The notes under the pieces: generated by a model | Databases searched by the model: none | What the model was told of the DNA's origin: nothing | What the model saw: only the letters and a program-made list of their open reading frames with translations | Part shown: positions 11,150-36,103 of the stretch, one piece after another | Layout of the letters: each line of letters begins with the position of its first letter | How positions within the stretch are numbered: position 1 is the stretch's first letter | Assembly: GCA_021808285.1 (NCBI GenBank) | Contig: JAKBBV010000024.1 | Span: 1-38,904 of the forward strand | DNA: 38,904 nucleotides | DNA from: Pseudomonadota bacterium | GTDB taxonomy: Bacteria; Pseudomonadota; Alphaproteobacteria; Caulobacterales; Caulobacteraceae | Direction: 5' to 3' | Position numbers and translations under genes: made by a program

Positions 11150-12132
11150 GAAACGTTCGCCCGCGCCGTTCGCCTGAGGCAGACAGCAATCTCGAAGCCG
11201 GTCGCCCTCATGCGCCGGTGCTCCTCGCTGAGGTGCTGGAGGCGATCCGCCCGGGTTCCGGTGACCTTATCGTAGATGGCACGTTCGGGGCTGGAGGCTA
11301 TAGCCGCGCCTTTCTCGACGCCGGCGCGGATGTATTAGCCCTGGATCGCGATCCGTCCGCGGAAGTTTTTGCCGAAGAGCTGCGGGCGAAGCCGGGTTTC
11401 CGCTTGGTCCTGGCTCCCTTCTCGACCTTGGCGGCGGTGCTGGGGATGAATAGGGCCGACGCCATCGCCCTGGACCTGGGGGTCTCCTCCATGCAGCTCG
11501 ACCAGGGCGAGCGCGGCTTCTCGCTCCGGCGCGATGGCCCTCTCGACATGCGAATGTCGCGCGAGGGGCTCAGCGCCGCCGATCTGGTCAACGGGGAGAG
11601 CTCAGAGGCTCTGGCGCATCTCTTTCGCCGCTATGGCGAGGAGCCGCAGGCCCGCCGCATCGCCGCCGCCATCGTACGCCGCCGAGTTGAAAGGCCGATC
11701 CTGCGGACGCTCGACTTGGCGGAGGTGGTGGAGCAAGCCGTTGGCGGCCGTCGCGGTCTTCGCGTTCACCCCGCGACGCGCGTTTTCCAGGCCCTCCGAA
11801 TCGCGGTCAATCAGGAGCTGGTCGAGCTGGAAGATGGGCTGACGGCGGCGGAGAAGGTGCTCAAGGCGGGCGGTAGGCTGGCGGTGGTGACATTCCATTC
11901 CCTAGAGGACCGCATCGTTAAGTCGTTCCTGTTGGCGAGGGCGGGCCAGGTCCCGGCAGGCTCCCGCCACGCGCCGCCGCGCATCGCCGGGCCGGCGCCC
12001 AGTTTTCGTCTGATCGTGCGCGGCGCTCAGGCGCCCGGCGCGGCGGAGATCGCCGCCAATCCGCGCGCCCGGTCGGCCAAGCTGCGTTGGGCGGTGCGCA
12101 CCGAGGCCCCGGCTTGGGAGGCGGCGGCGTGA
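11146..12132 (+). CDS. rsmH: 16S rRNA (cytosine-1402-N4)-methyltransferase
   Basis: SAM-dependent methyltransferase (formerly MraW) that methylates N4 of C1402 in the 16S rRNA decoding centre. 328 aa from the GTG at 11146, which overlaps the mraZ stop as GTGA. The open frame extends upstream into mraZ, but that extension is shadow sequence. Motifs: [16 protein letters not shown]-binding [10 protein letters not shown] (44-53), [19 protein letters not shown] with DGPLDMRM, and the late [15 protein letters not shown] and [10 protein letters not shown]. Complete and of normal length. Its own stop overlaps the ftsL start (GTGA), which supports translational coupling along the operon. Confidence 0.96.
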
Positions 12133-12590
12133 TCAATCCGTTCGGCCTCCTGACCCGGCGGGTGCGCGGGTTCCGCGTCATCGACATCGCCGCTGTCGGC
12201 GTGATCGTCGTCACCGCTCTGGCGACCTATGCCTTCAAGACCTCTGCGGGGGCTGAGGATGCCGATTCTTTGGGGATCGAGGGCCAGATCGTGGCCGAGC
12301 AGCAGCAAATTCGCCTGTTGCATGCCGAGCTGGCCAAACTGGACGACCCCACGCGCATTGAAGCGCTATCTAGCCAGTATCTCGGCATGGGAGCGGAGAC
12401 CGCCAAACAGGATATATCAGAGGTCGATCTAGGGCGCATCGCCAGCCGGCCCGCGGCCCCCGCGCCGGTGCTCACGCCGAGCCCCGCGCCTGACGATCCT
12501 GAGGCCACGCCCACCTCCGTCGAGACTCCGCCCTCATCAGCGTCATCGCCTCGCCCTGCGGCGCCCCCTGTCCACGCGAGGGCGGGATGA
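12129..12590 (+). CDS. ftsL: Cell-division protein FtsL
   Basis: Small bitopic inner-membrane division protein that pairs with FtsB/DivIC and helps activate FtsWI. 153 aa from the GTG at 12129 (GTGA overlap with rsmH). One membrane segment (~17-36, [20 protein letters not shown]) after a short basic N-terminus. A heptad-like periplasmic coiled coil follows ([22 protein letters not shown]), then [17 protein letters not shown], the conserved FtsL tail. The Pro/Ala-rich C-terminal ~50 aa is an extension, common in alphaproteobacteria. Identification rests on topology and position between rsmH and ftsI as much as on sequence. Confidence 0.9.
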
Positions 12591-14443: not shown

Positions 14444-15887
14444 GCGCTCGCCTCTCAGCCTTGGTGCAGCGTGATCTGGATGAGGATCCGGTGATCGAGG
14501 GGGTTACGGCTGACAGCCGCAAGGTTCGGCCGGGTTATTTATTTGCGGCTCTTCCCGGGGCGAAGGCTGACGGCCGCGCCTTCGTGGGCGCGGCGATAAA
14601 GCAGGGCGCGGCGGCGGTGCTTGCGCCGGATGCTTCCCCGGATTGGCGGCCCCAGTGGTGCAAGCGCACGACCCGCGCCGCGCCTATGCGCTCGCGGCGG
14701 CCGCGTTCTGGCGGCGCCAGCCCGAGGCCTGCGTCGCCGTCACAGGCACCAATGGCAAGACCTCGGTGGCAGGGTTCTGCCGACAGATCTTCAGTCAGCT
14801 GGGTCGGGCCTCGGCCAGCATGGGAACTCTCGGCGTACGCGCGGGCGAGGTCCAACTGACCCCGCCGGGCCTGACGACGCCGGACGCCGCCGACGTCGCG
14901 CGTCTGCTTTGCGAGTTGGCGACGGGAGGTATCACTCACCTGGCGCTGGAGGCCTCTTCCCACGGTCTGGACCAGCGGCGACTCGATGGCGTGAGACTGG
15001 CCGCCGGCGCTTTCCTCAATCTGACCCAGGACCATCTCGACTATCACGGGGATATGGCCACCTATCGCGCGGCCAAGCTTCGCTTGTTCGATACCCTCTT
15101 GCCCCGCGGTGCGACGGCTGTCCTCAATGCGGACTCGAGCGCCTATTCAGCCTTCGCGGCCACCGCCGTCAGCCACGGCCTCAGCGTTGTCTCAGTCGGC
15201 GCCGCCGGCCAGTCGGTGCGCCTTCTGGCTCGGGAAGCGGACCTTTCGGGGCAACGTCTGACCCTGCGGGCCTTTGGGCGCAAATACGACGTGGATCTGC
15301 CGTTGGTCGGAGACTTTCAGGCGACCAACGCCCTGGTCGCCGCGGGACTTTGCCTCGCGGTGGGCGAGTCGCCGGACGAGGTCTTCGCTGCGCTCGGCCG
15401 CCTTGAAGGCGCACCCGGTCGACTTCAGCGGGTAGGAGAGTCCGCCGATGGGGCGGTGGCCTATGTGGACTATGCCCATACGCCCGATGGCCTGGAGACA
15501 GTGCTGCGGGCGCTGCGGGGGCACGCTCGCGGTCGCCTGGTGCTCGTATTTGGCGCGGGCGGAGACCGCGATCGCACCAAACGTCCGCTGATGGGCGCGG
15601 CGGCGGCGGCCCTCGCCGATCTCGCTTTTGTCACCGATGACAATCCGCGCAGCGAAAACCCCGCGCTCATCCGCGCCGAGATTCTGTCTGGAGGTCGGGG
15701 CCTGATCGAGGCGCCAGGTCGCGCCCAGGCCATCAAGGCTGCGGTAGGATCTCTAGAGCGTGGAGACATCCTGGTGGTGGCGGGCAAGGGGCACGAGCAG
15801 GGGCAGGTGATCGGGAGAGACATCGTGCCGTTCGACGATATCGCCGAGACCCGTCGCGCTCTGGGGCTGGACGACGGCCGTGGCTGA
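14440..15887 (+). pseudogene. murE: UDP-MurNAc-L-Ala-D-Glu:meso-DAP ligase, frameshifted as read
   Basis: MurE adds the third stem-peptide residue (meso-diaminopimelate in Gram-negatives) in the cytosol. Domain 1 is read from ATG 14440 (ATGA overlap with ftsI): GVTADSRKVRPGYLFAALPG, then GAAAVLAPDASPDW. At about 14644-14650 the coding frame jumps by -1. The rest continues in the other frame: VVQAHDPRRAYALAAAAFW, the ATP site TGTNGKTS, DHLDYHGDM, NALVAAGL and a DNPRSENP motif typical of DAP-adding MurE. One extra C after GATTGG would restore DWPAPVVQAHDP, so the sequence looks like a 1-nt deletion. murE is essential, and the rest is undamaged with normal total length (~482 codons). A sequencing or assembly error is therefore more likely than true loss. 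No classical -1 slippery heptamer is at the junction. Confidence 0.9.
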
Positions 15888-17301
15888 ACCGGCTGGGGCG
15901 GTTCCGCTATGGAGCGGCCGCGACATCGCTGAGGCTGTGGGCGGCGCCCTGACGGGTGGAGATTTCGCCGTATCCGGGGTCGCGATCGATAGTCGGGAGG
16001 TGCAGCCGGGCGATCTCTTCGTCGCGCTCTCCGGGGCCCGGGATGGGCATGATTTCATCCCTGACGCGTTCAGACGCGGAGCTGTCGCCTCACTGACCTC
16101 GAGGGAAGTGGATGGTCCGCATGTTTGTGTCACGGGAGGCATTCTGGCGGCGTTGGAGGCGCTCGCGGCTTCCGCCCGGGAGCGGGCCGCGATGGCCCGG
16201 CGCGCCGCCGTCACCGGTTCGGTGGGCAAGACCAGCGTCACCCAGGCGATCCTGGCGGGGCTAAACCTGGCGGGCGGAGGCCATGGACCGGTTCGTTCCT
16301 TCAACAACCATATCGGAGTGCCCCTGACCCTGGCTCGCATGCCGGGCCAGACACGGCGCGCAGTGTTTGAACTCGGCATGAACCACGCGGGTGAAATCGC
16401 CCCCTTGTCGCGGCTCGTGCGGCCCCATGTCGCGGTCGTCACCACAGTGGCGGCGGTGCACGTTGAAGCGTTTGACGACGGAGAGGCCGGCGTGGCGCGC
16501 GCCAAGGCCGAGATCTTCACCGGTCTCGAACGCGGCGGAGTCGCGGTCCTCAATGCCGAAAACCGCTGGTTCGATGTTCTGAATGCGCAGGCCGAGGCGG
16601 CTGGGGCCGAGGTTCGCGCTTTTGGCTCCGCTCCAGGCGTCGCAGGGCGGCTGATTCACTTCACGCCCACACCCTCCGGCGCCTTCGTCGAGGCGGAGAT
16701 CGACGGGCGGGCAAGGCGCTATCCCTTGCGGCAAAGTGCGTCGCATTGGGGCCCCATGAGTCTGGCGGCGCTCTTGACCCTGCGCGCCCTGGACGTGGAC
16801 CTGGAAATCGCCCTGGCCGCCCTGGCCTCCTTCGAACCCCTCACCGGCCGAGGGGCTGCCTCTCAGATTCGTCTTCCGACAGGCGAAGCCACGCTCATCG
16901 ATGACAGCTATAACGCCAGCCCGGTATCCGTCGCCGCGGCGCTAAGGGCCCTGGGCGCGAAAAGCCCCGCAGGCCGGCGTCTCGTGGCCCTTACGGACAT
17001 GCTGGAACTCGGCCCTGAAGGCCCTGCTCAGCATGCCAAGCTTGCGGACGTCGCAGACGCGGCCGACATCGACCTGATGTTCTGCGCCGGACCGCTAATG
17101 CGCCACGCCTATGAAGCCTTGCCGCCGTCTCGCCGTGGGGCCTGGACAGAGTCCGTCGAATCACTGACGCCGATTCTGATCGCCGCCCTCAGCCCGGGCG
17201 ACGTCATTCTCGTCAAGGGCTCCAAGGCTTCGCGGGCTGCTGACATCGTCGCCGGACTAGCGAAGGCCTTTGCACCCGTTCTGGAGGGGGAGGAGAGCTA
17301 G
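15880..17301 (+). CDS. murF: UDP-MurNAc-tripeptide:D-Ala-D-Ala ligase
   Basis: Cytosolic ATP-dependent ligase that adds D-Ala-D-Ala to complete the muramyl pentapeptide. 473 aa from GTG 15880, overlapping the murE stop by 8 nt. Domain 1: [21 protein letters not shown]-binding loop TGSVGKTS (112-119), then [12 protein letters not shown] and [11 protein letters not shown], both MurF-specific signatures. The C-terminal domain has [11 protein letters not shown] and [10 protein letters not shown]-like sequence ([16 protein letters not shown]). Complete and normal in length. The stop overlaps the mraY start by one base (TAGTG), with GGAGGGGGAGGAGA before it serving mraY. Confidence 0.96.
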
Positions 17302-18416
17302 TGCTCTATCTGCTGTATCAGCACCTCGCCGCCCAAAGTCATCACTATATCGGCGTCCTCAATCTGCTGCGCTATCTGACCTTTCGGGGGGTCATGGCGG
17401 TAGCTACCTCTCAGGTTGTGGTCGTGGCCATGGGCTCACGATTCATCCGCTGGATGAAGGCGAAGCAGGGCAAGGGCCAGCCCATTCGCGCCGAGGGCAT
17501 TCAGCGCCACATCACCGAGAAGGCGGGCACGCCCACCATGGGCGGCCTGATGTTCCTCGCCGGCATTACCGTCGCCACTTTGCTCTGGGCAGATTTGCAG
17601 AATGTCTATGTATGGGCGGTTCTTCTGGTCACTCTCGGCTTTGGCGGCCTGGGTTTTCTCGACGACTACGCCAAGGTGACCAAGCAGACCACGGCCGGAC
17701 TCTCAGGCTGGCTCAGACTGCTGGTCGAAAGCCTGATCGGGGTTATCGCCGTCCTGGCTATGGTCCTGTTCGCCCCCCACTCGCCCGAAGGCGCTGGCCT
17801 ATCGACCTCTGTGGCTTTCCCCATATTCAAAAGGGCCCTGCTCGACCTGTCCTGGTTCTATCTGCTGTTCGGAGCCTTTGTGATTGTCGGCGCGTCGAAT
17901 GCCGTGAACTTCACCGACGGCCTGGATGGATTGGCGACCGTGCCGGTGATGATCGCCGCCGCGACCTTCGGCCTGATCGCCTACATGGTCGGAAATATCC
18001 GTTTCTCCGACTATCTCGAGCTCCATTTTGTCCCCGGCGCGGGCGAGGTGGCTATCCTCTGCTCAGCGATCGTCGGTTCAGGTCTGGGTTTCCTCTGGTA
18101 CAACGCGCCGCCGGCGCGGATATTTATGGGCGACAGTGGGGCCCTGTCCCTCGGAGCGGCGCTCGGCGCCATCGCCGTGGCCACCAAGCATGAGATCGTC
18201 TTGGCGATTGTCGGCGGCCTGTTCGTGGTCGAGACCGTCTCAGTCATCATCCAGGTGATGTGGTTCAAAAGGACCGGCAAGCGGGTGTTTCTCATGGCCC
18301 CGATTCACCATCACTTCGAGCGTCTTGGATGGTCGGAGTCGACGGTCGTGATCCGCTTTTGGATCGTCGCCATCATGCTGGCCCTGGTCGGGCTCTCGAC
18401 ACTCAAACTCAGGTGA
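17301..18416 (+). CDS. mraY: Phospho-MurNAc-pentapeptide transferase (lipid I synthase)
   Basis: Integral membrane enzyme that transfers phospho-MurNAc-pentapeptide from UDP to undecaprenyl phosphate, making lipid I. 371 aa with about 10 membrane segments. GTG 17301 shares one base with the murF stop and has a strong GGAGG-type ribosome site. Catalytic and Mg-binding features: GTPTMGG (77-82), Asp121-Asp122 in FLDDYAKV, Asp206 and Asp209 in NFTDGLDGL, Asp278 in FMGDSGAL, and the late HHHFE. The N-terminal ~20 aa ([20 protein letters not shown]) are the usual periplasmic start. All key residues are present. Confidence 0.97.
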
Positions 18417-18431
18417 GGCGGCCGTCGGCCC

Positions 18432-19883
18432 ATGATCCCCGTCCCCGTCTTTGCCGATCAGGAGGTGCTGGTCTTTGGGCTGGCCCGGTCGGGTCTGGCT
18501 GCGGCGCGCGCGCTTGAGGCGGGCCGAGCGCGGGTCCTCGGTTGGGATGAGCGGGACGCGGCTCGCGCGGCGGCGGTCGGCGAGGGGCTGACCCTGACGG
18601 ATCCTGCTTCGCTGGATTTCCGCCGCCTCGCCGCTGTTGTGCTCTCGCCCGGCGTCCCGCTCACCCATCCCACCCCCCATCCGGTCGTAACCCTCGCCAG
18701 GGCCGCGGGAGTGGACGTCATCGGCGATATCGAACTTTTTGCCCGCGCCATCGCACAGGCGCCGGAGCATAAGCGGCCGACTGTGGTCGCGATCACTGGG
18801 ACCAATGGCAAATCGACAACCACAGCGCTGGTGACGCACCTCCTCGCTGAGGCGGGCCGGGACGTACATATGGGCGGCAATATCGGATGGGGCGTGCTTG
18901 GCTTGCCCCCGATGCACGGCGGCGCCGTATATGTCCTGGAGCTGTCCTCCTACCAACTTGACCTGACTTCGAGCTTGCATCCCCGCGCCGCAATCCTGCT
19001 GAATCTCAGCCCCGATCATCTGGATCGCCACGGAGACATGGCGGGCTACGCGGCCGCTAAACGGCGCATCCTCCTCAATCAGGGCAAGGGCGACACGGCC
19101 GTGATTGGGGTTGATGACGATTGGGGGCAGAGGATCTGCACCGAGATCACGGCGGCTAACCGACGCACCATCTACCCGATCAGCGCGCGAAAGGCGCTCA
19201 GCCGTGGGGCTTACGTTCTCGAAGGCCGACTCTATGACGCCTGCGGATTGGATCGGGTTCTCGAGGTCGCAGATCTGACAGCTGCGCGCTCGCTTCCTGG
19301 TCGTCACAACTGGCAGAACGCCGCAGCCGCCTATGCGGCGGTAACGGCCCTGGGACTGACCACCGAACAGGCCGTGACCGGGCTGATGAGCTTTCCCGGC
19401 CTCGCCCACAGGATGGAGACGGTGGGCGCCCTCGGCGGCGTGCGCTTCGTCAATGATTCAAAGGCCACGAATATCGACGCCGCGCGGCAGGCGTTGGCGA
19501 GTTATCCCCGGGTGTTCTGGATCGCGGGCGGGCGCCCGAAGAGCGGCATCGAGGATCTGACTGATCTCTTCCCCACAATCGCTCGGGCCTATCTGATTGG
19601 CGAGGCGGCCGTAGACTTTGGCGCCACCCTGGCCGGCCATACGCCCTACGTTCTGAGCGGTGATCTGGCCAGGGCCGTCAAGGAGGCCTTCGTCGATGCC
19701 CGGGCCGAGGCTGCCCGCACTGGCGGTGAAGCCGTCGTGCTGTTTTCGCCAGCCTGCGCCTCGTTCGATCAGTTCACGGATTTCGAAGCGCGCGGAGAGG
19801 CCTTCCGCGTCGCTGTACAGGCCCTGGCGACGGAGGATCTGGGCGCTCAGATGCCGCCCCACAGGGGGGAGGTCCGCGCATGA
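18432..19883 (+). CDS. murD: UDP-MurNAc-L-Ala:D-Glu ligase
   Basis: Cytosolic ligase adding D-glutamate as second stem residue. 483 aa; ATG 18432 lies 15 bp after mraY. Domain 1 is a Rossmann-like UDP-binding fold (VLVFGLARSGLAAARAL). ATP loop TGTNGKSTT (122-130); LELSSYQLD and NLSPDHLDRHGDM are family signatures; FVNDSKATN and the C-terminal SPACASFDQFTDFEARGEAF are diagnostic for MurD. It is slightly longer than E. coli MurD (438 aa), as in other alphaproteobacteria. The stop overlaps ftsW as ATGA. Confidence 0.96.
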   Translation: MIPVPVFADQEVLVFGLARSGLAAARALEAGRARVLGWDERDAARAAAVGEGLTLTDPASLDFRRLAAVVLSPGVPLTHPTPHPVVTLARAAGVDVIGDIELFARAIAQAPEHKRPTVVAITGTNGKSTTTALVTHLLAEAGRDVHMGGNIGWGVLGLPPMHGGAVYVLELSSYQLDLTSSLHPRAAILLNLSPDHLDRHGDMAGYAAAKRRILLNQGKGDTAVIGVDDDWGQRICTEITAANRRTIYPISARKALSRGAYVLEGRLYDACGLDRVLEVADLTAARSLPGRHNWQNAAAAYAAVTALGLTTEQAVTGLMSFPGLAHRMETVGALGGVRFVNDSKATNIDAARQALASYPRVFWIAGGRPKSGIEDLTDLFPTIARAYLIGEAAVDFGATLAGHTPYVLSGDLARAVKEAFVDARAEAARTGGEAVVLFSPACASFDQFTDFEARGEAFRVAVQALATEDLGAQMPPHRGEVRA

Positions 19884-21046
19884 GTTCAAGTCAGCACGCC
19901 TTCCAGCGCACGGACCGGTCTCGCCTTGGCCTATGGTGGTGGACAACAGATCGCTGGCTTCTCGGAGCTACGGCCGTTCTGCTGATCCTGGGCGTCATTT
20001 TGCAATTCGGCACTAGTCCCGCGGCGGCGGTGCGCCTCGGCCTTAAATCACCGTTCCATTTCGCCATCCGGCAATGCATCTTCGCGGGTCTAGGCGTCAC
20101 CATTCTTTTGTTTGTCTCGCAGCTGAGCCCTAGGGGGGTGAGGCGGGCGGCCTTGATCGTCTACCTCATCTCTATGGCGGCGATGATGACTCTGCCCTTC
20201 GTCGGGCATGTCGCCAAGGGGGCCGGCCGCTGGGTCGACATCGCGGGGTTCACCCTGCAACCGTCGGAGTTCATGAAACCCGCGCTCATTGTCCTCGCGG
20301 CCTGGATGTTCTCCGAGGGTCGCAAGGGGGAGGTTCCGGGCACAACGATCGCCTTCGTGCTCTATCTGGCGGCCGTCGCGCTCCTCCTGATGGAGCCCGA
20401 TGTCGGTCAAACCATCCTCATCACAGCGGCCTTCGGCGCTGCGTTCTGGGTTGCGGGCGTGCCGACGAGCTGGATATTAGCCTTGGGCGGTGTCTCAGCG
20501 GCTGGCCTGACCGGGGTCTATTTCGCCTTCCCGCACGTGTCGAACCGAGTCCATACCTTCCTGCACCAGGATAAGTCAGGCGGCCCGACCCAGGTGCATG
20601 CCGCCGCCGAGGCGATCGCTGCGGGCGGTCTGTTCGGCAAAGGCCCCGGAGAAGGGGTCATGAAGCTGGAAATCCCCGACATGCACACCGATTTCGCCTA
20701 TAGCGCCGCCGCGGAGGAGTACGGCCTCTGGCTTTCGCTTTTGCTCATCGTCTTATTCGCTGTCCTGGTCTTGCGAGGGCTTTACAAGGCCATGCGGCTG
20801 GCCGACCCGTTTGAGCAGATCGCCGCCGCGGGCCTATTTGTCCTGGTTGGCTTGCAGGCCTTCATCAATGTCGCTGTGAACCTGGCCCTCATCCCCACCA
20901 AAGGTATGACCCTGCCATTCATTTCCTATGGCGGGTCGTCCATGCTCGGCATGGGATTGACCGTCGGCATGGCGCTGGCCCTTACGCGCCGTCGCCCCGG
21001 CGCCTATGCCTCTGAGCCCCTGGCTCGGGCTGGCGACTTCGCCTGA
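19880..21046 (+). CDS. ftsW: Septal peptidoglycan glycosyltransferase FtsW
   Basis: SEDS-family polymerase that elongates septal glycan strands from lipid II, working with FtsI from the same operon. 388 aa with about 10 membrane segments after a short cytosolic N-terminus (DRSRLGLWWWTTDRW). SEDS signatures: GAGRWVDIAGFTLQPSEFMKPA, LMEPDVGQTIL, HTDFAYSAAAEEYGLW and LPFISYGGSSML. Cluster membership favours FtsW over RodA. ATG overlaps murD (ATGA); murG follows after 11 bp. Confidence 0.95.
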   Translation: MSSSQHAFQRTDRSRLGLWWWTTDRWLLGATAVLLILGVILQFGTSPAAAVRLGLKSPFHFAIRQCIFAGLGVTILLFVSQLSPRGVRRAALIVYLISMAAMMTLPFVGHVAKGAGRWVDIAGFTLQPSEFMKPALIVLAAWMFSEGRKGEVPGTTIAFVLYLAAVALLLMEPDVGQTILITAAFGAAFWVAGVPTSWILALGGVSAAGLTGVYFAFPHVSNRVHTFLHQDKSGGPTQVHAAAEAIAAGGLFGKGPGEGVMKLEIPDMHTDFAYSAAAEEYGLWLSLLLIVLFAVLVLRGLYKAMRLADPFEQIAAAGLFVLVGLQAFINVAVNLALIPTKGMTLPFISYGGSSMLGMGLTVGMALALTRRRPGAYASEPLARAGDFA

Positions 21047-22247: not shown

Positions 22248-25200
22248 CTAGTCGCGTTCACCTTCGTCGGCGATGTTCGCCGTGGCCGCCGGATGTAATG
22301 AGAACATCCAGCCCCTCGCTCCAAGAGCCTGACCCGCGTCCCCTCCAGCTCCCGAACCGGCCGCAGTCCTTTCGGCCGCCACGCTGGGGATGGCGATGGG
22401 CGATTGCGCCTTGGCTTTCAGCGCCGAATTGGCCCTGGCGAAATCGCCATTGCGCAGGGCGTCGAAATCGCCCTGCACCTTCTCGAGCTGCCGGGTCAGT
22501 TCGTCGATACGAGCGAGCTGATAGGCCGCTGGCGCCCCGTCATAGGAGCTGATCGCGCCATAGACGTCGTCGGCATATTCGCGCAGGCGCAGTTCGCCGG
22601 TGATGGCCCCGCCTTCGGTGGTGGCGACGATCCGCTTGCGCAGCGCTTCCGCCTCCCCGGCCACCGTCTGGAGTTGGCCCCTTAGCGGGTCGGCGGGCGG
22701 CAGCGCGGCGGCCCTGGCCGCCGTCTGAGCGGCGACGGCGACGATCTGGGCGTCGAGGTCCGTCATTCGCCCAAAGAGAGCGCTGATCCGCGTCAACGCT
22801 TCGTACTGGGCCTTTCGCGCGGCAAGGTCGAAGTGATCGCGCCGGTCTAGCGTCACCTGGAACGGCGCCGTCACCGTCAGATCTCCGCTGGTGATTCGCA
22901 CCTCATACACGCCGGGTAACACACGTGGGCCCTGGGAGGCGTTGAAGGCGACCTGGGCGGCGGGTGGAACACGCGGCGGCGCGTCGCGCATGCCCCAAGT
23001 CACACGGTTGATCCCCGGACGCGTGGAGGCGGGCAGGGTATCGAGGATTTTTCCTGACGGATCGAGGACTTCGACCCTCAGCTTGCCGTACAGATGCCGG
23101 TGTGGCTCATAATAGGAGATGACCGCACCGTCGGTAGGGTCGGGGCCTACGAAGCTGGCATCGCCGTTCGACCAGCCCCCATTGCCCTCAATGCGCTCCT
23201 GGTCCGGGCGCGCGGGCAGGATGGAGATGGGCTTCTCCATCACCGCCTCGGTGAGACCCCTGAGGGGTGTCAGGTCGTCGACGATCCAGATGCCTCGGCC
23301 GTGGGTGGCGATGGCGAGATCCTTGTCGCGATTCTGGAAGGCGATATCGCGAACGGGGACATCAGGCAGGCCGCCGCCCTTGAACTGCGCCCATCGCTTG
23401 CCGCCGTCCGGTGAAATCCAAAGCCCGAACTCGGTACCGGCATAGAGGAGGCCCGGGCGTTCGGGGTCCTCCTTGATCACCCAGACCTGACCGCGCATCC
23501 CCTGTGCGGGTGAGGCGATCCGGGTCCATGTCTGCCCGTAATCGCTCGTGCGATAGATATAGGGCTCGAAGTCGCCGAACACGTGCCTGTCGAACGCAGC
23601 ATACGCCACCGCCGCGTCATAAGGACTGGCCTCTATCCAGGAGACCCAAGAGCGGGCTGGAACGCCGATCTTGGCCGTGAGATTGTTCCAGTGCGCGCCG
23701 CCGTCCCGGGTGAGCTGAACATTGCCGTCGTCGGTTCCCACCCAGATCTGACCGGCCGCCTTGGGCGATTCTGAGATCGCTTAGATGGTCGTGTAGGTTT
23801 CCGCGGCAGAGTTATCGACAGTGATCCCGCCGCTCTTCTCCTGCTGCTGTTTGGAGGGATCATTAGTGGTCAGGTCGGGCGAGATTTTGTCCCAGGTCTG
23901 GCCGTGGTCACGACTGCGGAACAGGTACTGCGCGCCGATATAGATTTCGCCCTTGTCGTTGGGGCTGACCACCAGAGGCGTATTCCAGTTGAAACGCAGT
24001 TTCTCGGCTGTGTCCGACTGCGGCTGGATGTCCCGCATCTCATGGGTGTGACGGTTGACGCGCACCACTGACCCGCCCTGGCTCTCGGAGTAGGCAAAGC
24101 CGTCCGGATCAGCCGGATCGGGCCAGGCCCAGAAACCATCGCCGCCTCCGATATTCTCCCACCGACCGTTCGTAACCCCTCCTGGATAGGCGGTGTCGCC
24201 GACCCAGGCGGCGTTATCCTGCAGGCCGCCATAGACCTGGTAGGGATCCTTGTCGTCGAGACTGACATGATAGAACTGTGAGATCGGCAGGTTGTCGACC
24301 TTGGACCAGCGATTGGCCCCGTCGTGGCTGATCCAGAGGCCCCCGTCGTTGCCCACGACGATATGTTTAGTGTCGCTGGGATCTATCCAAAGGTCGTGCT
24401 GGTCTGGATGGATGCTCTGGCTCAGCGTTGTGAAGCTTCTTCCGCCATCGTCACTGACGATCAGGGAGAAGTCGGTCTTGAACACCCGGTTGGGGTCCTT
24501 GGGGTCGACCTTCAAGTTGGCGAAATAAAAGGGGCGCCACACCATCCACTGGCTACGGTCCCGCGGCGCCCAGGTCTTACCGCCGTCATCCGAGCGATAG
24601 AGCGCGCTCTTCGCGCTCTCCACAAAGGCATAAACGACCTTCGGGTCGGAAGGCGCGAAGGCCACGGCCTCTCGTCCCCAGGGGCCATCGGGAAGACCAT
24701 CGCCTGGTGATTTGAGGCTTTTCCAGGTGGCGCCGCCGTCTTCCGTGACCAGGAGGTCGCTCCCGGATGGCGCCTTCTCATCCTCGCCGCCGGAGCGAAA
24801 GCCCCAGCCGGTGCGGCGGAAATCCCACATGCCGGCAATCAGCTTGTTGGGATTGCTAGGGTCCATGCTCAGGGTTGAGCAGCCGCTGGAGAGATTGGCG
24901 CCCTTGAGGATCAGGGTCCAGGTCTTGCCGCCATCTCTGGTCTTGTAGAGGCCGCGGTCGGCGCTGTCGCTCCACAACCGGCCGGGAACGCAGACATACA
25001 CCGTGTCGCTGTTCGAAGGATCGACGAGGATTTTGGAGATGTGCTCTGAGGCTGGAAGGCCCATATGGGTCCAGGTCTCGCCCCCGTCCGTGGTCTTATA
25101 GACGCCATCGCCCACCGAGACCGAGTTGCGCATCCAACTCTCGCCAGTGCCGACCCAGTAGGTGTCGGGATGGTTGGGGTCGAGCGCGATGGCTCCGATG

Positions 25201-25514
25201 GACTGGACGTCCTCCTTGTCGAAAATGGGTCGGAACGTCGTGCCGTCGTCCTGCGATTTCCATAACCCACCCGAGGCGGCGCCGACCAAAAGCAGGGTCG
25301 AGCCGTCCTTCTCATGGCGCCCGGCGATGGCTGAAACCCGGCCGCTCATTGTCGCCGAGCCAATGTTGCGGGCGCCAAGGCCCGACAAGATCGCACTGTC
25401 GAAGGTGGAGGCGGCTGTCACCGGGAGGGTTGCCGCGGCAGCTGCGGAACTGCTCAGGGCGGCAAAGCTGGCGGCGGCGAGAAGGAACGCGCGAGAGAGA
25501 TGTGCGCGGCTCAT
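22248..25514 (-). pseudogene. Exported BNR/sortilin-type repeat protein, split by one in-frame stop
   Basis: Predicted exported beta-propeller protein of the VPS10/sortilin-like or glycosyl-hydrolase-like BNR class. Signal peptide at the start (RAFLLAAASFAALSSSAAAA). About eleven Asp-box repeats (S/T-x-D-x-G-x-T-W) are visible, e.g. KTTDGGETW, RSDDGGKTW, RSRDHGQTW and SPDGGKRW. A TAA at 23783-23781 interrupts the frame after SAAETYTTI, and the same frame continues at once with AISESP and IWVGTDDGNVQ. Family members usually read TTIYAIS here, so one base change from TAT/TAC explains the stop. Without it the protein would be 1088 aa, a normal length. The C-terminal part has a helical tail (IDELTRQLEKVQ). 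ATG overlaps the stop of the upstream LolA-fold gene (ATGA). Confidence 0.85.
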
Positions 25515-28620: not shown

Positions 28621-28992
28621 CTACTTTTGCGTCGCCAGGAAGGCGACCAGGTCATCGACCTGCTGGGGATTATGAAGACCCGCATAGGTCATCTTCGTGC
28701 CTGGGACCATGCCGCGGGGGTCTGGCAGGTATTCGCGCAGCTTGGCTTCGGTCCAAACCCATCCTGCGGCCTTCATGCCCGGAGAATAGGCATAGCCGGC
28801 GAGGGTTCCGGCCTTGCGGCCTACCACCCCGTGCAGGTTGGGGCCCATCTTGAAGCCTGATCCCGGCGTCACGGCATGACAGATGCCGCACTGCGTATTG
28901 AAGTCGGTTCTCCCGGCGATAGGGTTGCCACCGGCTTGAGCCGCGCCCGCAATGAGAGCGAACGCGGCGGCGAAGGTCAGTATGCGATCCAT
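28621..28992 (-). CDS. Periplasmic class I cytochrome c
   Basis: 123-aa monoheme cytochrome c, exported by a signal peptide (LTFAAAFALIAGAAQA). Heme attachment CGICH (Cys35, Cys38, His39). The distal ligand is Met101 in VPGTKM. KMGPNLHGVVGRKAG and YSPGMKAAGWVWTEAKLREYL are typical of cytochrome c2/mitochondrial-type c, a soluble electron carrier. Its ATG lies inside the end of the upstream outer-membrane cytochrome gene (16-nt overlap, 28977-28992), so the two are translationally coupled. It probably accepts electrons from, or gives them to, that protein. Family call firm; partnership inferred. Confidence 0.94.
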   Translation of the reverse strand: MDRILTFAAAFALIAGAAQAGGNPIAGRTDFNTQCGICHAVTPGSGFKMGPNLHGVVGRKAGTLAGYAYSPGMKAAGWVWTEAKLREYLPDPRGMVPGTKMTYAGLHNPQQVDDLVAFLATQK

Positions 28993-30473
28993 AGAAACAC
29001 CCTGAATGCGTTGTTGTTGGAAGGTTGAGAGCCCAGCCCATCATAGTTGCTGCGTGCGCCGTTGAACTCAGCGTAGTAGGTGTACTGAATACCCGTCCTG
29101 GCGTTGAAGCGCGGCCCGAAGGGCGACTTGCCGGCCCCCCAGGGCGTGGCGTCCACCTGAACCGTGAAGCCTTCCGTATCCGGGCGCGCCACACGGTTTC
29201 CGTCGACAATCTGGTACAGGTAGGCATTGCCGGAGCCGAATGTGCGAAAGAGCTGAAGCGTGGCCCCAAACTGGTTGCGGAAATAGTAGCTGGCGTCAGC
29301 GCGGAGGTCGTTCAGGCCGGTGACCCGATTACAGTCCAGATATCCGGCCAACGCTGCGCTGGCGCAGGTGTAGTTCAAATACGCGTCCTCGTGGATGAGG
29401 TGGCCCTGAAGGGTAAAGACGTCGCCGTTGGAGCGCATGACGTACCATGACGAATCCAGACCCACGTCGTCGTAGAGATCGGTGAGTCCCAAAGACTGGT
29501 CGAGGCCAGGATAGATGCGGGTCGACATGCCGAAGGCCCCGATTTCCAGGACGCCCTGGCCCAGGCCCTTTTGGTAGGCGACTCTTGCATATGGCGCCAA
29601 GCCGGAGATCGAACCTGGGCTGGTGGGGTCGACGCCCAGCCGGGTCAGCTCCTTGGCGGTCGGAGAGCCATAGGCCCCTGCTTCGAGGTAGAAGGCGTCA
29701 TCGATCCAGGCATAGGCCGTGCCGCCGATGACCTCCTGGGCCAGGCCTCCCGAAAGCAAAGGAGAGGCCGATGGAGCCGGGACAAGAGTGGACGATGTAT
29801 AGGGAAAGCCCCAGGCCGGGGTGGTGTTCCAGGCGTCTTCCACGGTCGGGGCGTTGTTCAGGCTCACCCCTAGCACCGCGGAATGCTTGCCGAGATTGGC
29901 GGTGGTGACGCCGCGGACATCAAGATTATCCCAGTGAAAGGCATGGGCCACCCCGTCATAGGTCGTCTGAATGAAGGCGCCGAGATGGTCGCCCAAGCCA
30001 CCGGCGACAAACAGGCTGACTTGGTCCACGGCCAGATTGTTATTTGGGGCGAAGTTCTTCGGCGGCGGGTTTTGCGAGGCGCCAGTATTAGTGAACGAGC
30101 TCACCACCATGCCTGAGAGCGGAACATTCCATTTGACCGCCCGAAGCGTGTAACCGTGAAGTTTGAACTCTCGTCCAAACGGAGTGAGCTGGGGTCCAAA
30201 GCCGCCCACGTGACAGGCTTGGCATGGCTGGCCGGTTTGTACAGCGAAGGCAGGGACAGCCCGAGCCGAGCCTGGATGAAACGCCAGAACGAGACAGAGC
30301 CCCAGCCAACCGACGAAGCGCCAGGAGTGTTTCGCGGCCTGATGGGCGCCGTAGAGGCGATCGGACGACGCAGACCACGTCGAAGCTGGCGCGAACGGCG
30401 ATCGCCCCGGCGACCTCGACGGTTCGGCCTTCACCCCTTTGTCCCTTAGGGAGTTGTTGTCCAAACGGCCCAT
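28977..30473 (-). CDS. Cyc2-like outer-membrane cytochrome-porin fusion
   Basis: 498-aa predicted outer-membrane protein combining one c-type heme site with a beta-barrel. The export signal is internal to a long N-terminus (~50-72, WRFVGWLGLCLVLAFHPGSARA). Directly after it come AVQTGQPCQACH (Cys84, Cys87, His88) and LTPFGREFKLHGYTL, matching my memory of Cyc2-type proteins, in which a small heme domain plugs a ~16-stranded porin. The remainder is alternating polar/hydrophobic strands ending in RVFLWIAY, whose final aromatic residue fits a barrel-assembly signal. ATG 30473 has AAAGGG 6 nt upstream; the ~48-residue N-terminal extension before the signal is odd, but no better start is evident. 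Cyc2 oxidises Fe(II) at the surface in iron oxidisers; function here is unproven. Confidence 0.75.
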   Translation of the reverse strand: MGRLDNNSLRDKGVKAEPSRSPGRSPFAPASTWSASSDRLYGAHQAAKHSWRFVGWLGLCLVLAFHPGSARAVPAFAVQTGQPCQACHVGGFGPQLTPFGREFKLHGYTLRAVKWNVPLSGMVVSSFTNTGASQNPPPKNFAPNNNLAVDQVSLFVAGGLGDHLGAFIQTTYDGVAHAFHWDNLDVRGVTTANLGKHSAVLGVSLNNAPTVEDAWNTTPAWGFPYTSSTLVPAPSASPLLSGGLAQEVIGGTAYAWIDDAFYLEAGAYGSPTAKELTRLGVDPTSPGSISGLAPYARVAYQKGLGQGVLEIGAFGMSTRIYPGLDQSLGLTDLYDDVGLDSSWYVMRSNGDVFTLQGHLIHEDAYLNYTCASAALAGYLDCNRVTGLNDLRADASYYFRNQFGATLQLFRTFGSGNAYLYQIVDGNRVARPDTEGFTVQVDATPWGAGKSPFGPRFNARTGIQYTYYAEFNGARSNYDGLGSQPSNNNAFRVFLWIAY

Positions 30474-30530
30474 GACTCACCCTTTCGTGATCCGTTGGAG
30501 CGGTAGTGTCTCGGTCGTCGGGTGACCGCC

Positions 30531-30544
30531 TTGATCTCGATCAG
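30531..30544 (-). promoter_or_regulatory. FNR/FixK-type box upstream of the cytochrome pair
   Basis: TTGATCTCGATCAG matches the alphaproteobacterial FNR/FixK consensus TTGATCNNGATCAA at all but the last fixed base. Its centre is about 65 bp before the start codon of the Cyc2-like gene, a suitable distance for an activator site at about -41 of a promoter. It overlaps the stop codon of the upstream permease gene. No strong -10 box is obvious (CACTAC at 30508-30503 sits at the right place but is weak). Confidence 0.6.
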
Positions 30545-32031
30545 GACGATGTTCGACGCTCCGCTAGAGCGGCTGCGACCTGGGCATGTCGGGCCCGGCT
30601 GATGCCATAGGGAGAGAAGATGATGATGGAGCCAAGACAGAGCAGGGCGACGCCTGGTCCGTAGACGAGCATTAGTCGCTGAAGGACAGGCTCAGGGACC
30701 GCACCCGGGATCAGCCCGCCAGTCTCGTGTGGAAAGCCGATCAGATCGAGGGCAAACCCCGCCACGAGGACACCGAGACCGCCGGCCGCTTTGGCGGCGA
30801 ACGCGAGCCCAGCGAAGAACAGCCCCTCGCGACGGCTCCCGTAGAGATATTCGTGCTCATCGGCGGCGTCGGCCATCATTGAGGGGTAGGCGACGACGGC
30901 GAGCCCCATGCCAAGGCCGGCCACCAAACTGTTGACCATGAGCGGAACTGTCGCGGCGGACCCGGTGGGCATAAAGAGATGTAGGACGCGTAGGCCCGGC
31001 AGGACCGCCCAGACGAACACCACCGTCCAAAGCCCGATAATGACCATGGTCTTCTTCTCAAGACGCCTGGAGACCTGCGGTGCGGCCCCTGCGCCAAGGA
31101 ACAGCCCCGCCAGGAAGGCGTAGGCGAGGAACTGGATTTGAGCCGTCGGCAGTCGCCAGACGAAGACGGCCGTATGGTTGCCGAAGGTCGCATTCAGACC
31201 CACGGCGACGTAGAATACCACTGCGGATATGAAGAGCCGCCTGAACGAGGCGTTGCGCCAGATATCCGCGATCTCCACTGGCAGGCCGGAGATCAGGGGG
31301 CTGGGGCGCTCGGCGGGCTGCGGAAGCCGCGCGGCGTAGCGCATCAGGCCTAGCGCGCAGATCGCGGTCATGACGCCGACCAGACATCCGACCATCCAGC
31401 CAAATCCCGGATAGGCGGACATGCGCTGAAGGCCAGCGCTACCGACAAAGAAAAGGCCAAAGGCAGCGACGTTGATCACGAGCCCCGCAAGGATGCCGAC
31501 GATAGCCCTCCAGGCGACCACGCTCGAGCGCTCCTGATAGTCCTCGGTCATCTCCGCGCCGAGGGCGAAATAGGGCACATTAAATAGAGACACCGCGCTC
31601 CGGGCGAGGATGCAGCTGACGGCCAGCCAAACGGTCAGGGCTGCGGGGCTGAGACCATGGGGCGGGGCGAACAGCATGCCAAGCGTCAGCGGGATCAGGG
31701 GCGCCCCGGCGAGCATCAGGGGCAATCGTCGTCCGAGGCGCGTTCGCAGATTGTCTGAGATCGAGCCGACAAGGGGATCGACGATGGCGTCGAATACCAG
31801 GCTGACGGAAATGGCCAGGCCCACCTCCCCGCCGGAGAGCCCGAGCACGACGGTGTAATAGAAGAAGACAAACGGTATGGCGGTGTCGAAGGCCCCGGAT
31901 TGGGCGAATTGGCCGAGGCTGTAGAGGAACTTGTGGGCTAGGCTGGGCTTGAAAGAGGGGCGCGGATCAGTCGGCCTCAACGTATCCGCCGCCAAGCTCT
32001 CGAGAGTCTCGCTCCATGCCGCTTCAGCCAC
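30541..32031 (-). CDS. GPH-family (glycoside-pentoside-hexuronide) sugar/cation symporter
   Basis: 496-aa MFS-type permease with about 12 membrane segments. GTG 32031 is chosen because AGGGAGAGGG lies immediately upstream; the frame stays open to 32154, but that part covers the intergenic region and reads poorly. The start of the membrane domain, KFLYSLGQFAQSGAFDTAIPFVFFYYTVVLGLSGGEVGLAISVSLVFDAIVDPLVGSISDN, with TRLGRRLPLMLAGA, is typical of GPH transporters (MelB relatives). Divergent from the SMP-30/PhyH/alpha-galactosidase operon, it is the likely uptake route for the galactoside or its product. The ~35-aa N-terminal cytosolic tail is longer than usual. Confidence 0.85.
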   Translation of the reverse strand: MAEAAWSETLESLAADTLRPTDPRPSFKPSLAHKFLYSLGQFAQSGAFDTAIPFVFFYYTVVLGLSGGEVGLAISVSLVFDAIVDPLVGSISDNLRTRLGRRLPLMLAGAPLIPLTLGMLFAPPHGLSPAALTVWLAVSCILARSAVSLFNVPYFALGAEMTEDYQERSSVVAWRAIVGILAGLVINVAAFGLFFVGSAGLQRMSAYPGFGWMVGCLVGVMTAICALGLMRYAARLPQPAERPSPLISGLPVEIADIWRNASFRRLFISAVVFYVAVGLNATFGNHTAVFVWRLPTAQIQFLAYAFLAGLFLGAGAAPQVSRRLEKKTMVIIGLWTVVFVWAVLPGLRVLHLFMPTGSAATVPLMVNSLVAGLGMGLAVVAYPSMMADAADEHEYLYGSRREGLFFAGLAFAAKAAGGLGVLVAGFALDLIGFPHETGGLIPGAVPEPVLQRLMLVYGPGVALLCLGSIIIFSPYGISRARHAQVAAALAERRTSS

Positions 32032-32155
32032 ATCCCTCTCCCTTACGATGGTCGCCGAAGCGCTTGTTTTTCGAGACCTTAGTCGCCAAGGCGGCGTTGG
32101 CAACGCCTCTTGTTCGTCTTGATCGCCCAGGCATCGGGGTCCATAGGCAATCACC
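32032..32155. promoter_or_regulatory. Divergent control region with two palindromes
   Basis: 124-bp gap between divergent sugar genes. It holds AAGCGCTT (32058-32065), an 8-bp palindrome with the central CG seen in LacI/GalR-type operators. It also holds GGCGTTGGCAACGCC (32093-32107), a perfect 6-bp inverted repeat with a 3-nt centre. Either could be the operator; no local regulator gene is present to pair with them. Confidence 0.4.
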
Positions 32156-33059: not shown

Positions 33060-33935
33060 ATGCGCTTGACCGACGCTCAATTGGCCCAGGTCTGGGATCG
33101 CGGATTCGCAGTTGTCGAGGGGTTTCTTGACCCGGAGACATTGGCTGCGGCTCAGGAGGCGATGTGGGATTACTATCCCCGGCCCGATGCCTATTTCGCC
33201 GATCCGCAGGCCTATCCGAAGTTCGCCGCCAGCCAATTCGCCGGTCTGCGTTTCTTCCCCTATGTTTCATGGGCGCTCAATCGCCTTCCCGTCTATCCCG
33301 ATCTCGTGGATGCGGCCGAGAGGTTTCTGGAGACCCAGGCCGTGGAGGTCTACAAGGTTGAGCTTTGGGCCAAATACGCCGGCGCGGTAAACTACGACCA
33401 GCCTCACCATCGCGACTTCGGCAACCACACGCTTGTCGTGCCGCGCACCGACGGTTTCCTGCCGCAGATGACGACCTTTCTGCTGCTTTCTGATGTGACG
33501 GAGCTTGATGGCCCCACCAAGCTCGTGCCCCTCGAACACACTCGCCATCTGCCGCTAACGCCGCGCCAGCTTCCGATGGGCGAACTCTTCGATAAGGAGA
33601 TCGCAGCGACTGCGCCGGCTGGGTCGCTGATGATTTACAAGACCGACGTTATGCATCGCGGCTCGGATTTCACGGCGCCGGGCCGCTCGCGTTTTGCCAT
33701 GCTCGTTGATTTTCAGGCCAAGGGATACCCCTGGCGCGGGAAGATGTCCTGGCCAGATCGGGGGGAATGGAAAGGTATGACCGAGGCCATGGTCCGGATG
33801 ACCGCGCGTGAGCGGGACCTTTTCGGCTGGCCGCCGCCTGGCAGTCCCTACTGGAACGCCCAGACCCTTGCCGACGTCGCCGTACGCTATCCGGGCATGG
33901 ACATGGCGCCCTATGAGGAGGGCGTCTCGGCGTGA
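33060..33935 (+). CDS. PhyH-family Fe(II)/2-oxoglutarate dioxygenase
   Basis: 291-aa phytanoyl-CoA dioxygenase-superfamily enzyme: a non-heme iron oxygenase that couples 2-oxoglutarate decarboxylation to substrate oxidation. ATG 33060 has a perfect AAAGGAGG 6 nt upstream; the longer open frame lies inside SMP-30. Metal triad: His117-x-Asp119 (PHHRDF) and His199 (DVMHRGSDF). The 2-oxoglutarate-binding arginine is probably Arg211 (GRSRFAML). N-terminal RGFAVVEGFLDPETL is typical. The 13-bp gap to SMP-30 and GTGA overlap with alpha-galactosidase place it firmly in a sugar operon, so a carbohydrate or glycoside substrate is likelier than a fatty acyl-CoA. Actual substrate unknown. Confidence 0.85.
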   Translation: MRLTDAQLAQVWDRGFAVVEGFLDPETLAAAQEAMWDYYPRPDAYFADPQAYPKFAASQFAGLRFFPYVSWALNRLPVYPDLVDAAERFLETQAVEVYKVELWAKYAGAVNYDQPHHRDFGNHTLVVPRTDGFLPQMTTFLLLSDVTELDGPTKLVPLEHTRHLPLTPRQLPMGELFDKEIAATAPAGSLMIYKTDVMHRGSDFTAPGRSRFAMLVDFQAKGYPWRGKMSWPDRGEWKGMTEAMVRMTARERDLFGWPPPGSPYWNAQTLADVAVRYPGMDMAPYEEGVSA

Positions 33936-36103
33936 TCCCACCCCTCGTCCGTCTGTCGGGCGGCGGTCAGAGCCTCATCTTCGCCTTTGAGTCCGGTCTG
34001 GCGCGGCTCGTGTGGTGGGGTGCGGAGCTTTCGGCGATGGAGGCGGAGGCGGCCGTCCGGCTCGCGGACCGAGGCATTCCTCAAGGCATGCTGGATGCTG
34101 GCGAGGCGCTGAGCCTGCATCCCTGCGCGGCCCAGGGCTTCACCGGCTTTCCCGCTCTGGAGATCCGTCGCGACGACGGGACCTTCCTCGCCGATCCCCG
34201 TGTCACTGGGGTCAGAGGAGGCGCCGACGCGGTGGAATGGCGAGCAATGGATCGCCTCGCCGGTCTTGATCTGAGTGTGAAGGTAACTCTCGATGCAGCG
34301 ACCGGCGTCGCGGCTTTCAAGACACGCGTAGAAAACACCGGCGGTTCGACCCTTTGTCTTGACTGGGTCGCCTCTGCCGCCCTGCCGCTCGATGAGGACG
34401 AAGCCTTGATGTTTGATGGCCGCTGGGCAGGCGAGATGCGCCCGGTGCGCGCGCGTCTGACCACAGGGACTTGGCTTAAGGACAATCGGACGGGCCGCAC
34501 TTCCCACCACGCGCCGCCCTTCGCCGTCGTCGGAGCGCCGGGTTTTGGGGAGGACGAGGGCGAGGTTTTGGGTCTGCATCTGGCCTGGAGCGGTTCGACG
34601 CGCCTTGTTCTCGAGCGGCTCCGCGACGGGCGCCTTCAGGCCCAGGCGGGCGAGCTCTTCCTACCCGGCGAGATGACTCTTGCGCCGGGCGAAGCCTATG
34701 AGACGCCCACTCTTTACGCCGCGCGTAGCGACCGTGGGCTGAACGGCCTATCTGCGCGACTGCATCCCTTTGTGCGGGATGTCATCATGGGCGGACGTCT
34801 GGCCGCCCGGCCGCGACCGGTGACCTTCAACACCTGGGAGGCGGTCTATTTCCGGCACGATCTGGACGAACTGAAGGCTCTGGCGGACCGGGCTGCAGCC
34901 CTGGGAGTGGAGCGTTTCGTGCTCGACGATGGCTGGTTCGCTGGCCGCCATGACGACACGACGAGCCTTGGCGACTGGCGCCCCGATCCGGCGAAATATC
35001 CCGAAGGTCTGTCCCCTCTTATCGACCATGTGCGAGCGCTAGGCATGGAATTCGGTCTGTGGGTCGAGCCGGAGATGGCCAATCCTGCTTCCGAGCTCCT
35101 GGCGGCTCATCCCGACTGGAGTCTCAAGGTCGCTGGACGAGAGCAACCTCTGGGACGCGGGCAATATGTGCTCGACCTGACCCGCGCCGAAGTTTCCGAC
35201 GCGATCTTCGCCCAGATCGACTCCCTGCTGCGCGCTCATCCCATCGCCTATCTTAAATGGGACATGAACCGGGACCTCACACACGCGGCGAGTGCGGGAC
35301 GACCGGCGGTCCATGCTCAGACCCAGGCCGTCTACGCTCTGATCGACCGCCTGCGCGCCACCCATCCTGGTGTCGAGATCGAATCCTGCGCTTCGGGCGG
35401 GGGGCGGGCGGACTACGAAATCCTGAAACGCACTGACCGAATCTGGACCTCTGACAACAATGATCCGTTCGTGCGTCAGGCGTTGCAACGCGCCTTCACC
35501 ATCTTCTTTCCACCAGGGGTCATGGGCGCGCATGTGCCCGCAGCGATCAACCCCATCACCGGAGGTCGATCCGGGATGGCCCTGCGCGCCGCCACCGCGC
35601 TTTTCGGCCATATGGGCATTGAGGCTGACCCGCGTAGGTTCAGCCTTGGTGAGAGCGAGAGGCTTGCCTGGATGATCGCCCTGCATAAGCGCCATCGCCG
35701 GCGCCTGCACTCAGGCCGCCTGATCCGCCTCCCCCACCCCGATCCAGGAGCCTCCGCGCTGATGGCGACCGACTCCGAGGGGGCGCTGGTCTGCTTCACC
35801 CAATTGGCCCCGTCTATGACCGCAACCCCTGCGCCACTGAAGCTGTCCGGCCTCGATGAGGCGGCCACCTATCTCGTTCTCAGGATAGATCCGCCTTCAA
35901 GGCCTAGCGCGATGATGAAGCGGTCTCCGCCGCTTGCGGAGGGCGCGCCCGCGACCGCATCGGGGCGCGTACTGGTTCGCCAGGGTCTGCCCTTACCCGT
36001 TCTTCGAGTCGGCGGTGTTGCGCTCTATGAGTTGGAGCGGATCGGTGACGATGCGGCCTTTTCCGGCGAGGCGCGTCTGGCCCCTGCGAGGCGCGCGCCT
36101 TAG
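33932..36103 (+). CDS. GH36 alpha-galactosidase
   Basis: 723-aa cytosolic retaining alpha-galactosidase that removes alpha-linked galactose from oligosaccharides; no signal peptide. GTG 33932 overlaps the PhyH stop (GTGA). An N-terminal beta-sandwich (~1-285) is followed by the barrel: FNTWEAVYFRHDLDEL, FVLDDGWFAGRHDDTTSLGDW and FGLWVEPEMANP. The nucleophile is Asp444 in YLKWDMNRDL and the acid/base is Asp508 in WTSDNNDP, with ESCASGGGRADYEI between them. A short beta domain ends in GGVALYELERIGDD. Length is normal. The last 111 bp overlap the converging ClC-CBS frame. Together with the divergent GPH symporter this suggests use of an imported alpha-galactoside. Confidence 0.95.
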   Translation: MIPPLVRLSGGGQSLIFAFESGLARLVWWGAELSAMEAEAAVRLADRGIPQGMLDAGEALSLHPCAAQGFTGFPALEIRRDDGTFLADPRVTGVRGGADAVEWRAMDRLAGLDLSVKVTLDAATGVAAFKTRVENTGGSTLCLDWVASAALPLDEDEALMFDGRWAGEMRPVRARLTTGTWLKDNRTGRTSHHAPPFAVVGAPGFGEDEGEVLGLHLAWSGSTRLVLERLRDGRLQAQAGELFLPGEMTLAPGEAYETPTLYAARSDRGLNGLSARLHPFVRDVIMGGRLAARPRPVTFNTWEAVYFRHDLDELKALADRAAALGVERFVLDDGWFAGRHDDTTSLGDWRPDPAKYPEGLSPLIDHVRALGMEFGLWVEPEMANPASELLAAHPDWSLKVAGREQPLGRGQYVLDLTRAEVSDAIFAQIDSLLRAHPIAYLKWDMNRDLTHAASAGRPAVHAQTQAVYALIDRLRATHPGVEIESCASGGGRADYEILKRTDRIWTSDNNDPFVRQALQRAFTIFFPPGVMGAHVPAAINPITGGRSGMALRAATALFGHMGIEADPRRFSLGESERLAWMIALHKRHRRRLHSGRLIRLPHPDPGASALMATDSEGALVCFTQLAPSMTATPAPLKLSGLDEAATYLVLRIDPPSRPSAMMKRSPPLAEGAPATASGRVLVRQGLPLPVLRVGGVALYELERIGDDAAFSGEARLAPARRAP

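Follow-up and report, generated by a model that had tools for sequence, protein, structure and literature searches.

Genes and features of the locus

The window, by which we mean the whole stretch of 38,904 nucleotides analyzed, carries on its reverse strand the gene of a Cyc2-like cytochrome-porin of 498 aa (28977..30473), recognized by reading of the open reading frame and by a profile match to relatives. A hydrophobic stretch ahead of AVPAF was read by eye as a signal peptide; the pre-sequence before AVPAF is long, with 71 residues in the window and 37 in the sister locus L003. The mature part, of about 427 aa, begins with AVPAFAVQTG at 30260 and harbors a single c-type heme motif, CQACH (30210..30224, reverse strand), aligned with that of 27 relatives. 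In the alignments, a Val codon (30240..30242, reverse strand) occupies the position of the signature Arg of Cyc2 (AXPXFAR), and the Arg codon of GYTLR (30141..30143, reverse strand) corresponds to mature residue 40. The preliminary description of this 498-aa frame had listed one CxxCH, the segment TPFGREFKL and an aromatic end; all were found in place, the segment reading LTPFGREFKLHGY and the last residue being Tyr.

The remainder of the protein is presumably a barrel, in which a crude script counted 14 amphipathic 10-mers. No Pfam or NCBIfam model matched the window protein at E 0.1. When 28 relatives were compared with the same collections, two weak cytochrome-model matches were obtained, and one relative each matched a PorV-type barrel model, DUF7430, a PorV/PorQ model and a spore protein model, the barrel-model matches being only single weak ones of PorV type. 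The PDB sequence matches of the porin were T-cell receptor chains (best E 0.025), which we took as chance, and a profile of 28 relatives retrieved nothing from the PDB at E 1. Two Cys (29331-29366; mature residues 299 and 310) lie in a presumed barrel loop, and some aligned relatives also have a Cys pair in the same presumed loop.

The second gene of the pair encodes a 123-aa monoheme class I cytochrome of c/c2 type (28621..28992, reverse strand). It overlaps the porin gene by 16 nt (28977..28992, reverse strand), exactly as described before, and the overlap has the same length in L003 and L034. This partner scored 36.6 bits against Pfam Cytochrom_C (PF00034), whose cut-off is 21.3, and cytochrome c and cytochrome c2 occur among the 60 listed of its 104 PDB sequence matches; it appears to be c/c2-like.

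Upstream of the porin, on the same strand, lies a GPH-type MFS transporter gene (30541..32154), assigned by Pfam/NCBIfam and also upstream in the sister L003. Beyond this synteny, no tie of the transporter to the gene pair was found. Elsewhere, the window contains cell-wall/division genes (10975-21046: MraW, a penicillin-binding transpeptidase, two Mur ligases and an FtsW/RodA-type protein), as well as two neighboring BNR/Sortilin-type repeat proteins, of which one passes the Sortilin cut-off and the other narrowly misses it, and a GH36 melibiase (22248-25514 and 33932-36103).

Relation to Cyc2

Cyc2 is recognized by the AXPXFAR[Q/K][T/Y] signature together with a PXL motif (PMC8406198). The definition of Keffer et al. 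2021 comprises a single CXXCH, PXL four residues after it, at least 365 residues, a signal peptide, a 16-stranded outer-membrane barrel, homology to family members and Fe(II) oxidation, and sequences without PXFAR[Q/K][T/Y] were excluded from the published tree (PMC8406198). The window protein has one CXXCH near its mature N terminus and, with 498 aa (427 aa mature), is longer than this minimum. Its PQL comes after five residues from the heme motif, the other aligned sequences (rows) having three, four or five. Its signature reads AVPAFAVQT, with Val for Arg, which does not match AXPXFAR[Q/K][T/Y]. The shorter pattern PXFAR[Q/K][T/Y] was present in 19 of 64 rows and in 0 of the 39 rows of the GPQL lineage, that of the window protein; in a larger set, two of 49 GPQL-type rows (L074 and L081) contained it.

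The profile search for Cyc2 similarity that had been suggested for this protein gave a full-length match (411 of 411 positions, 411.5 bits) with a model built from 16 signature-Arg relatives, of which 11 pass the strict motif and none is a named, biochemically tested Cyc2. Against a model of eight cluster-1-like rows, all from genomes of one family and, at a guess from the motif, Zetaproteobacteria, the score was 40.8 bits and covered only positions 1-106 of 365. The label Cyc2-like is thus borne out by full-length homology to signature-Arg cytochrome-porins and not by the published signature. Judged from its sequence, the window protein is not a Cyc2 in the strict sense, because the signature Arg is absent. 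By descent it belongs to a sister lineage of these cytochrome-porins; it would be expected to function like those of Cyc2 type.

Compared with Cyc2 itself (A. ferrooxidans Cyc2, Mariprofundus Cyc2PV-1 and Leptospirillum Cyt572), the window protein shares the one CXXCH near the N terminus, the FGRxFKxxGY segment, a mature length of about 430 residues and a cytochrome gene, which in Cyc2 often adjoins (PMC8406198). It differs in the replaced signature Arg and in a new fixed Arg at GYTxR, and the spacing from the heme motif to PQL is two residues longer than in the common alphaproteobacterial rows. The partner is monoheme in the lineage of the window, whereas that of the others is mostly diheme.

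A lineage with a displaced arginine

The GYTxR motif was present in 39/39 rows of the Arg-less subclade to which the window protein belongs, compared with 0/36 other rows (75 rows), and its fixed Arg sits 33 residues after the lost signature Arg. None of the 31 signature-Arg rows has GYTxR, and five of the 75 rows have neither.

In a tree of 56 rows, from which the trait columns had been removed, the 39 GPQL rows stood on one side of a branch with support 99/95, and 33 rows of the window's subclade were likewise split off with support 100/99. This first tree followed a narrow pattern that left out L058, L059, L061, L074, L081, L083, L085, L091 and L092. A quick tree of 67 rows, with 11 rows added (L058, L059, L061, L074 and L081 restored; L103, L105, L106, L107, L109 and L110 new), supported the GPQL-type branch with 92 and the GYTxR branch with 100. 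L083, L085, L091 and L092 were in neither tree, and duplicates or fragments (L005, L015, L053, L054, L068 and L069) were skipped.

GYTxR arises once on the 67-row tree. As a single event, the Arg relocation counts as one coincidence and not as many, and we rejected it as a repeated compensation. The 36 Arg-less GPQL rows did not form one clade in the best tree, and constraining them to a single clade could not be rejected (p-AU 0.385). Outside the GPQL lineage, a relative on an Acidithiobacillus ferrooxidans plasmid (L035, 5890-7257) reads AIPAFAAQT, with the signature Arg gone and without the GYTxR Arg.

Partner cytochromes among relatives

A c-type cytochrome gene is next downstream in 5/6 plasmid-borne homologs examined. 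The downstream cytochrome (within 1.2 kb) was monoheme in 22/22 GPQL rows and diheme in 9/11 other rows, in a table compiled by hand from neighbor listings whose rows are not independent. The table excludes rows without such a neighbor (17/39 GPQL and 6/17 others of the 64-row set), as well as the eight cluster-1-like rows, none of which showed a neighboring cytochrome. It also omits L058, L059, L061, L074 and L081, together with the partners that lie upstream in L103-L106. Class I cytochromes resembling the partner were found in 16/16 genomes of the genus, with or without the porin, so the partner protein alone is not specific.

FixK/FNR-type boxes and regulators

A FixK/FNR-like box, TTGATCTCGATCAG (30531..30544, no strand assigned), lies 57 nt ahead of the porin ATG and overlaps the stop codon of the upstream MFS gene. 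It is one mismatch from TTGATNNNNATCAA, which we take to be the FixK/FNR consensus. In the window and in its sister the mismatch is CTGAT for TTGAT, at the overlap with the stop of the upstream gene. The window contains two box matches against 0.36 expected (3/100 shuffles reach two), and the 2.9-Mb genome contains 46 sites, compared with five for the pattern read backwards. Taken alone, the box of the window is weak.

Exact TTGA-N6-TCAA was found upstream in 9/31 related loci, a set that counts the window although its own box is not exact. The simulated mean was 0.07 and the maximum 2 in 300 simulations, and each of six control palindromes was met 0 or 1 times. With one mismatch allowed, the count was 14/31 (simulated mean 1.8, maximum 7). 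In the larger set, 12/39 upstream regions had an exact box and 27/39, including that of the window, had none. Because exact boxes recur upstream in relatives, the box of the window gains weight. One-mismatch sites are not rare in the genome, and a chance match was set aside on this recurrence; in the window itself the box is a putative one.

In three congeners with puf and RuBisCO genes (G034, G070 and G085), the porin gene has an exact box, and so has the cytochrome gene. Neither box nor partner was present in the stretches seen of L107 and L108 (both G095), L110, L112, L114, L115 and L116. In G110, the first copy (L018) has no box and the second (L106) is cut by the contig end.

As to regulators, a FixK-type gene (L047, 6073-6822) scored 222 bits with the FixK model, below its 300-bit cut-off, and a FixJ-type gene of the host genome scored 293.6 bits, over a cut-off of 255. 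A FixL-like ORF of 317 aa reached 215.7 bits, far under the cut-off of 850; at L047 6807-7760, it stops within the kinase part after these 317 aa. The FNR/FixK-type box announced in the preliminary description is present with one mismatch, with FixK-type boxes in part of the relatives and FixK/FixJ-type genes in the genome.

Some upstream regions carry further features. A CTTAAGG-centred element followed by CGTCTGG precedes the porin in L103, L104/L031 and L105; CTTAAGG occurs in these 3/39 regions against a simulated mean of 0.29 (maximum 2 in 200). In L103 (5136-7299, forward strand), two genes beside the FixK box are divergent from the porin: one for a multicopper oxidase and an unknown one that no Pfam model matches. 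Genes similar to the latter are also found in L104 and L105. Universal stress protein and AAA/APH genes adjoin the porin gene in L105 (2118-4913, reverse strand), with an exact FNR-type box (3078) ahead of the stress protein gene; the arrangement looks like a low-oxygen gene island.

Host genome and distribution

The host genome (2.9 Mb, 97.75% complete, 0.14% contamination) was assumed at first to be that of a heterotroph. We rejected this premise because RuBisCO and reaction-centre genes were found: the RuBisCO large subunit (805 bits), cbbX, phosphoribulokinase and FBPase lie together on one contig (C46, L095), and pufL, pufM, bchX, bchY, bchZ and bchC on another (C89, L099). The RuBisCO is probably of form I; no small subunit was recognized in the host proteins scanned. 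One heme-copper oxidase gene was found in the genome, aa3-type by eye. The genus is likely to be Palsa-881, to which PMC12700997 gave the new name Acaudatibacter, since that paper reports reaction-centre and Calvin-cycle genes there.

Matches to the porin were obtained in 37/249 sampled genomes of the family, some of them partial (in G044, a 38-aa piece only), in 13/385 genomes of the class sample and in 70/398 of the phylum sample, where 18 extend over nearly the whole profile and 52 cover the N terminus only. Plasmid records gave 9/72,556, and a genome contig search gave two Caulobacteraceae MAG loci. The best 30 of the family match places were taken as loci, by which more distant family copies are under-sampled. 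The sole relative from the viral-contig scan, on an IMG/VR contig (L069, 4839-6194), is partial, being truncated where the contig ends.

In the family sample, puf was found in 21/249 genomes and RuBisCO in 7/249. The porin occurs in 12/21 puf genomes versus 25/228 others (p 2.4e-6) and in 6/7 RuBisCO genomes (p 4.7e-5), relatedness being ignored in both tests. Within the genus, 14/16 genomes have the porin, and the eight puf and six RuBisCO genomes are all inside these 14 (p 0.23 and 0.375); outside the genus, the porin is present in 4/13 puf genomes (p 0.028). Six genomes of the genus combine puf, RuBisCO and porin: G000 (the window), G034, G070, G085, G095 and G110. The sister genome G021 has puf and no RuBisCO match. 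The association mostly follows genus membership. The co-occurrence is significant across the family and not within the genus; as a sign of a causal link to photosynthesis it is suggestive only.

Discussion

The gene pair is real. Its resemblance to the Cyc2 family was rightly noted, but the family name does not apply in the strict sense; nor is the host simply a heterotroph. Our preferred reading, held tentatively, is that the pair may be a low-oxygen-induced electron inlet under FixJ-FixK, most likely for Fe(II), which leads to the reaction centre or to the aa3-type oxidase. In the cytochrome-porin, a Cyc2 homolog of a separate Arg-less lineage, the single heme would sit where an outer-membrane barrel opens to the periplasm. 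It would accept electrons from outside the cell, dissolved Fe(II) being the most likely donor. The electrons would pass to the c2-type cytochrome of the overlapping gene and from there to the photosynthetic reaction centre in the light, or to the aa3-type oxidase with oxygen. Falling oxygen would switch the pair on through FixJ-FixK.

For such control there is a regulatory precedent in the FixK-dependent iron-oxidation operon pioABC of Rhodopseudomonas palustris (PMC3050613). As in the window, the iron-oxidation genes of strain TIE-1 have FixK boxes and belong to an alphaproteobacterial phototroph (PMC3050613); PioABC includes the decaheme cytochrome PioA and a separate outer-membrane protein, PioB (PMC10654088), whereas the window encodes one fused monoheme protein. 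The Cyc2 homologs of Acetobacteraceae, an alphaproteobacterial family with photosynthetic members, often lie beside a mono- or diheme cytochrome gene (PMC10715153). They belong to another family, and the account of them in PMC10715153 appears to describe neither FixK control nor the Arg change.

The same inlet might serve respiration only, with electrons from Fe(II) reaching the aa3-type oxidase and photosynthesis uninvolved, either for energy or for keeping Fe(II) outside the cell at the oxic-anoxic boundary. The 25/37 porin-bearing family genomes without a puf match, and the single, seemingly aa3-type heme-copper oxidase gene of the host, are consistent with this. We consider it rather unlikely, as the exact FixK boxes at both genes in the three puf and RuBisCO congeners and the c2-like partner argue against it.

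The low-oxygen type of the boxes would also suit an outlet, in which a reduced cytochrome pool is discharged at low oxygen to Fe(III), humics or some other acceptor outside the cell, and the Arg-less relative on the A. ferrooxidans plasmid, with similar matches on Acidiphilium plasmids, points the same way. However, no quinol-to-periplasm shuttle was noticed beside the gene pair in the window, and c2-type carriers normally supply oxidases or reaction centres. Even though Cyc2 and Cyc1 isoforms have been named as the ferric-iron-reduction pathway of acidithiobacilli (PMC10715153), we regard an outlet as quite improbable here. Least probable of all is an outer-membrane protein with a structural or sensory heme or a non-iron substrate, as in copper or redox stress: a multicopper oxidase and an unknown gene adjoin the congener locus L103, with the box region in common, and the window protein has no Pfam or NCBIfam match, but the single heme motif, the frequent cytochrome neighbor across the lineage and the C-terminal aromatic residue in 30/39 GPQL rows speak against it.

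Within the inlet reading, a more specific form would be photoferrotrophy in Caulobacteraceae, in which a FixK-controlled, Arg-relocated porin lineage would pass electrons of extracellular Fe(II) by way of a c2-type cytochrome to the reaction centre, for light-driven CO2 fixation at the oxic-anoxic boundary. In this full form, we think it unlikely. Cyc2 was already proposed to serve phototrophic Acetobacteraceae (PMC10715153), and lake phototrophs with cyc2-type genes have been reported before: 40% of lake Chlorobium groups have cyc2 homologs (PMC8125076). For Caulobacteraceae, the photoautotrophic potential of 'Acaudatibacter' (GTDB Palsa-881) was described in 2025 (PMC12700997); that paper appears to name no specific electron donor, and its main text contains neither 'iron' nor 'cyc2'. 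Our search, with most subscription journals outside it, returned no paper joining Caulobacter with Cyc2 and porin, or Palsa-881 with iron.

The gene pair offers a concrete candidate for the electron inlet of photoautotrophic Caulobacteraceae, testable gene by gene. The extent of Cyc2-type electron uptake may be underestimated, because a screen with the published signature would retain just two of the 49 rows that represent this lineage in our set. The loss of the signature Arg, together with the new fixed Arg, provides a direct mutational test of the role of that residue at the heme. Because the genome also has genes for light-driven carbon fixation, the pair could be the electron entry for an unrecognized kind of photosynthesis.
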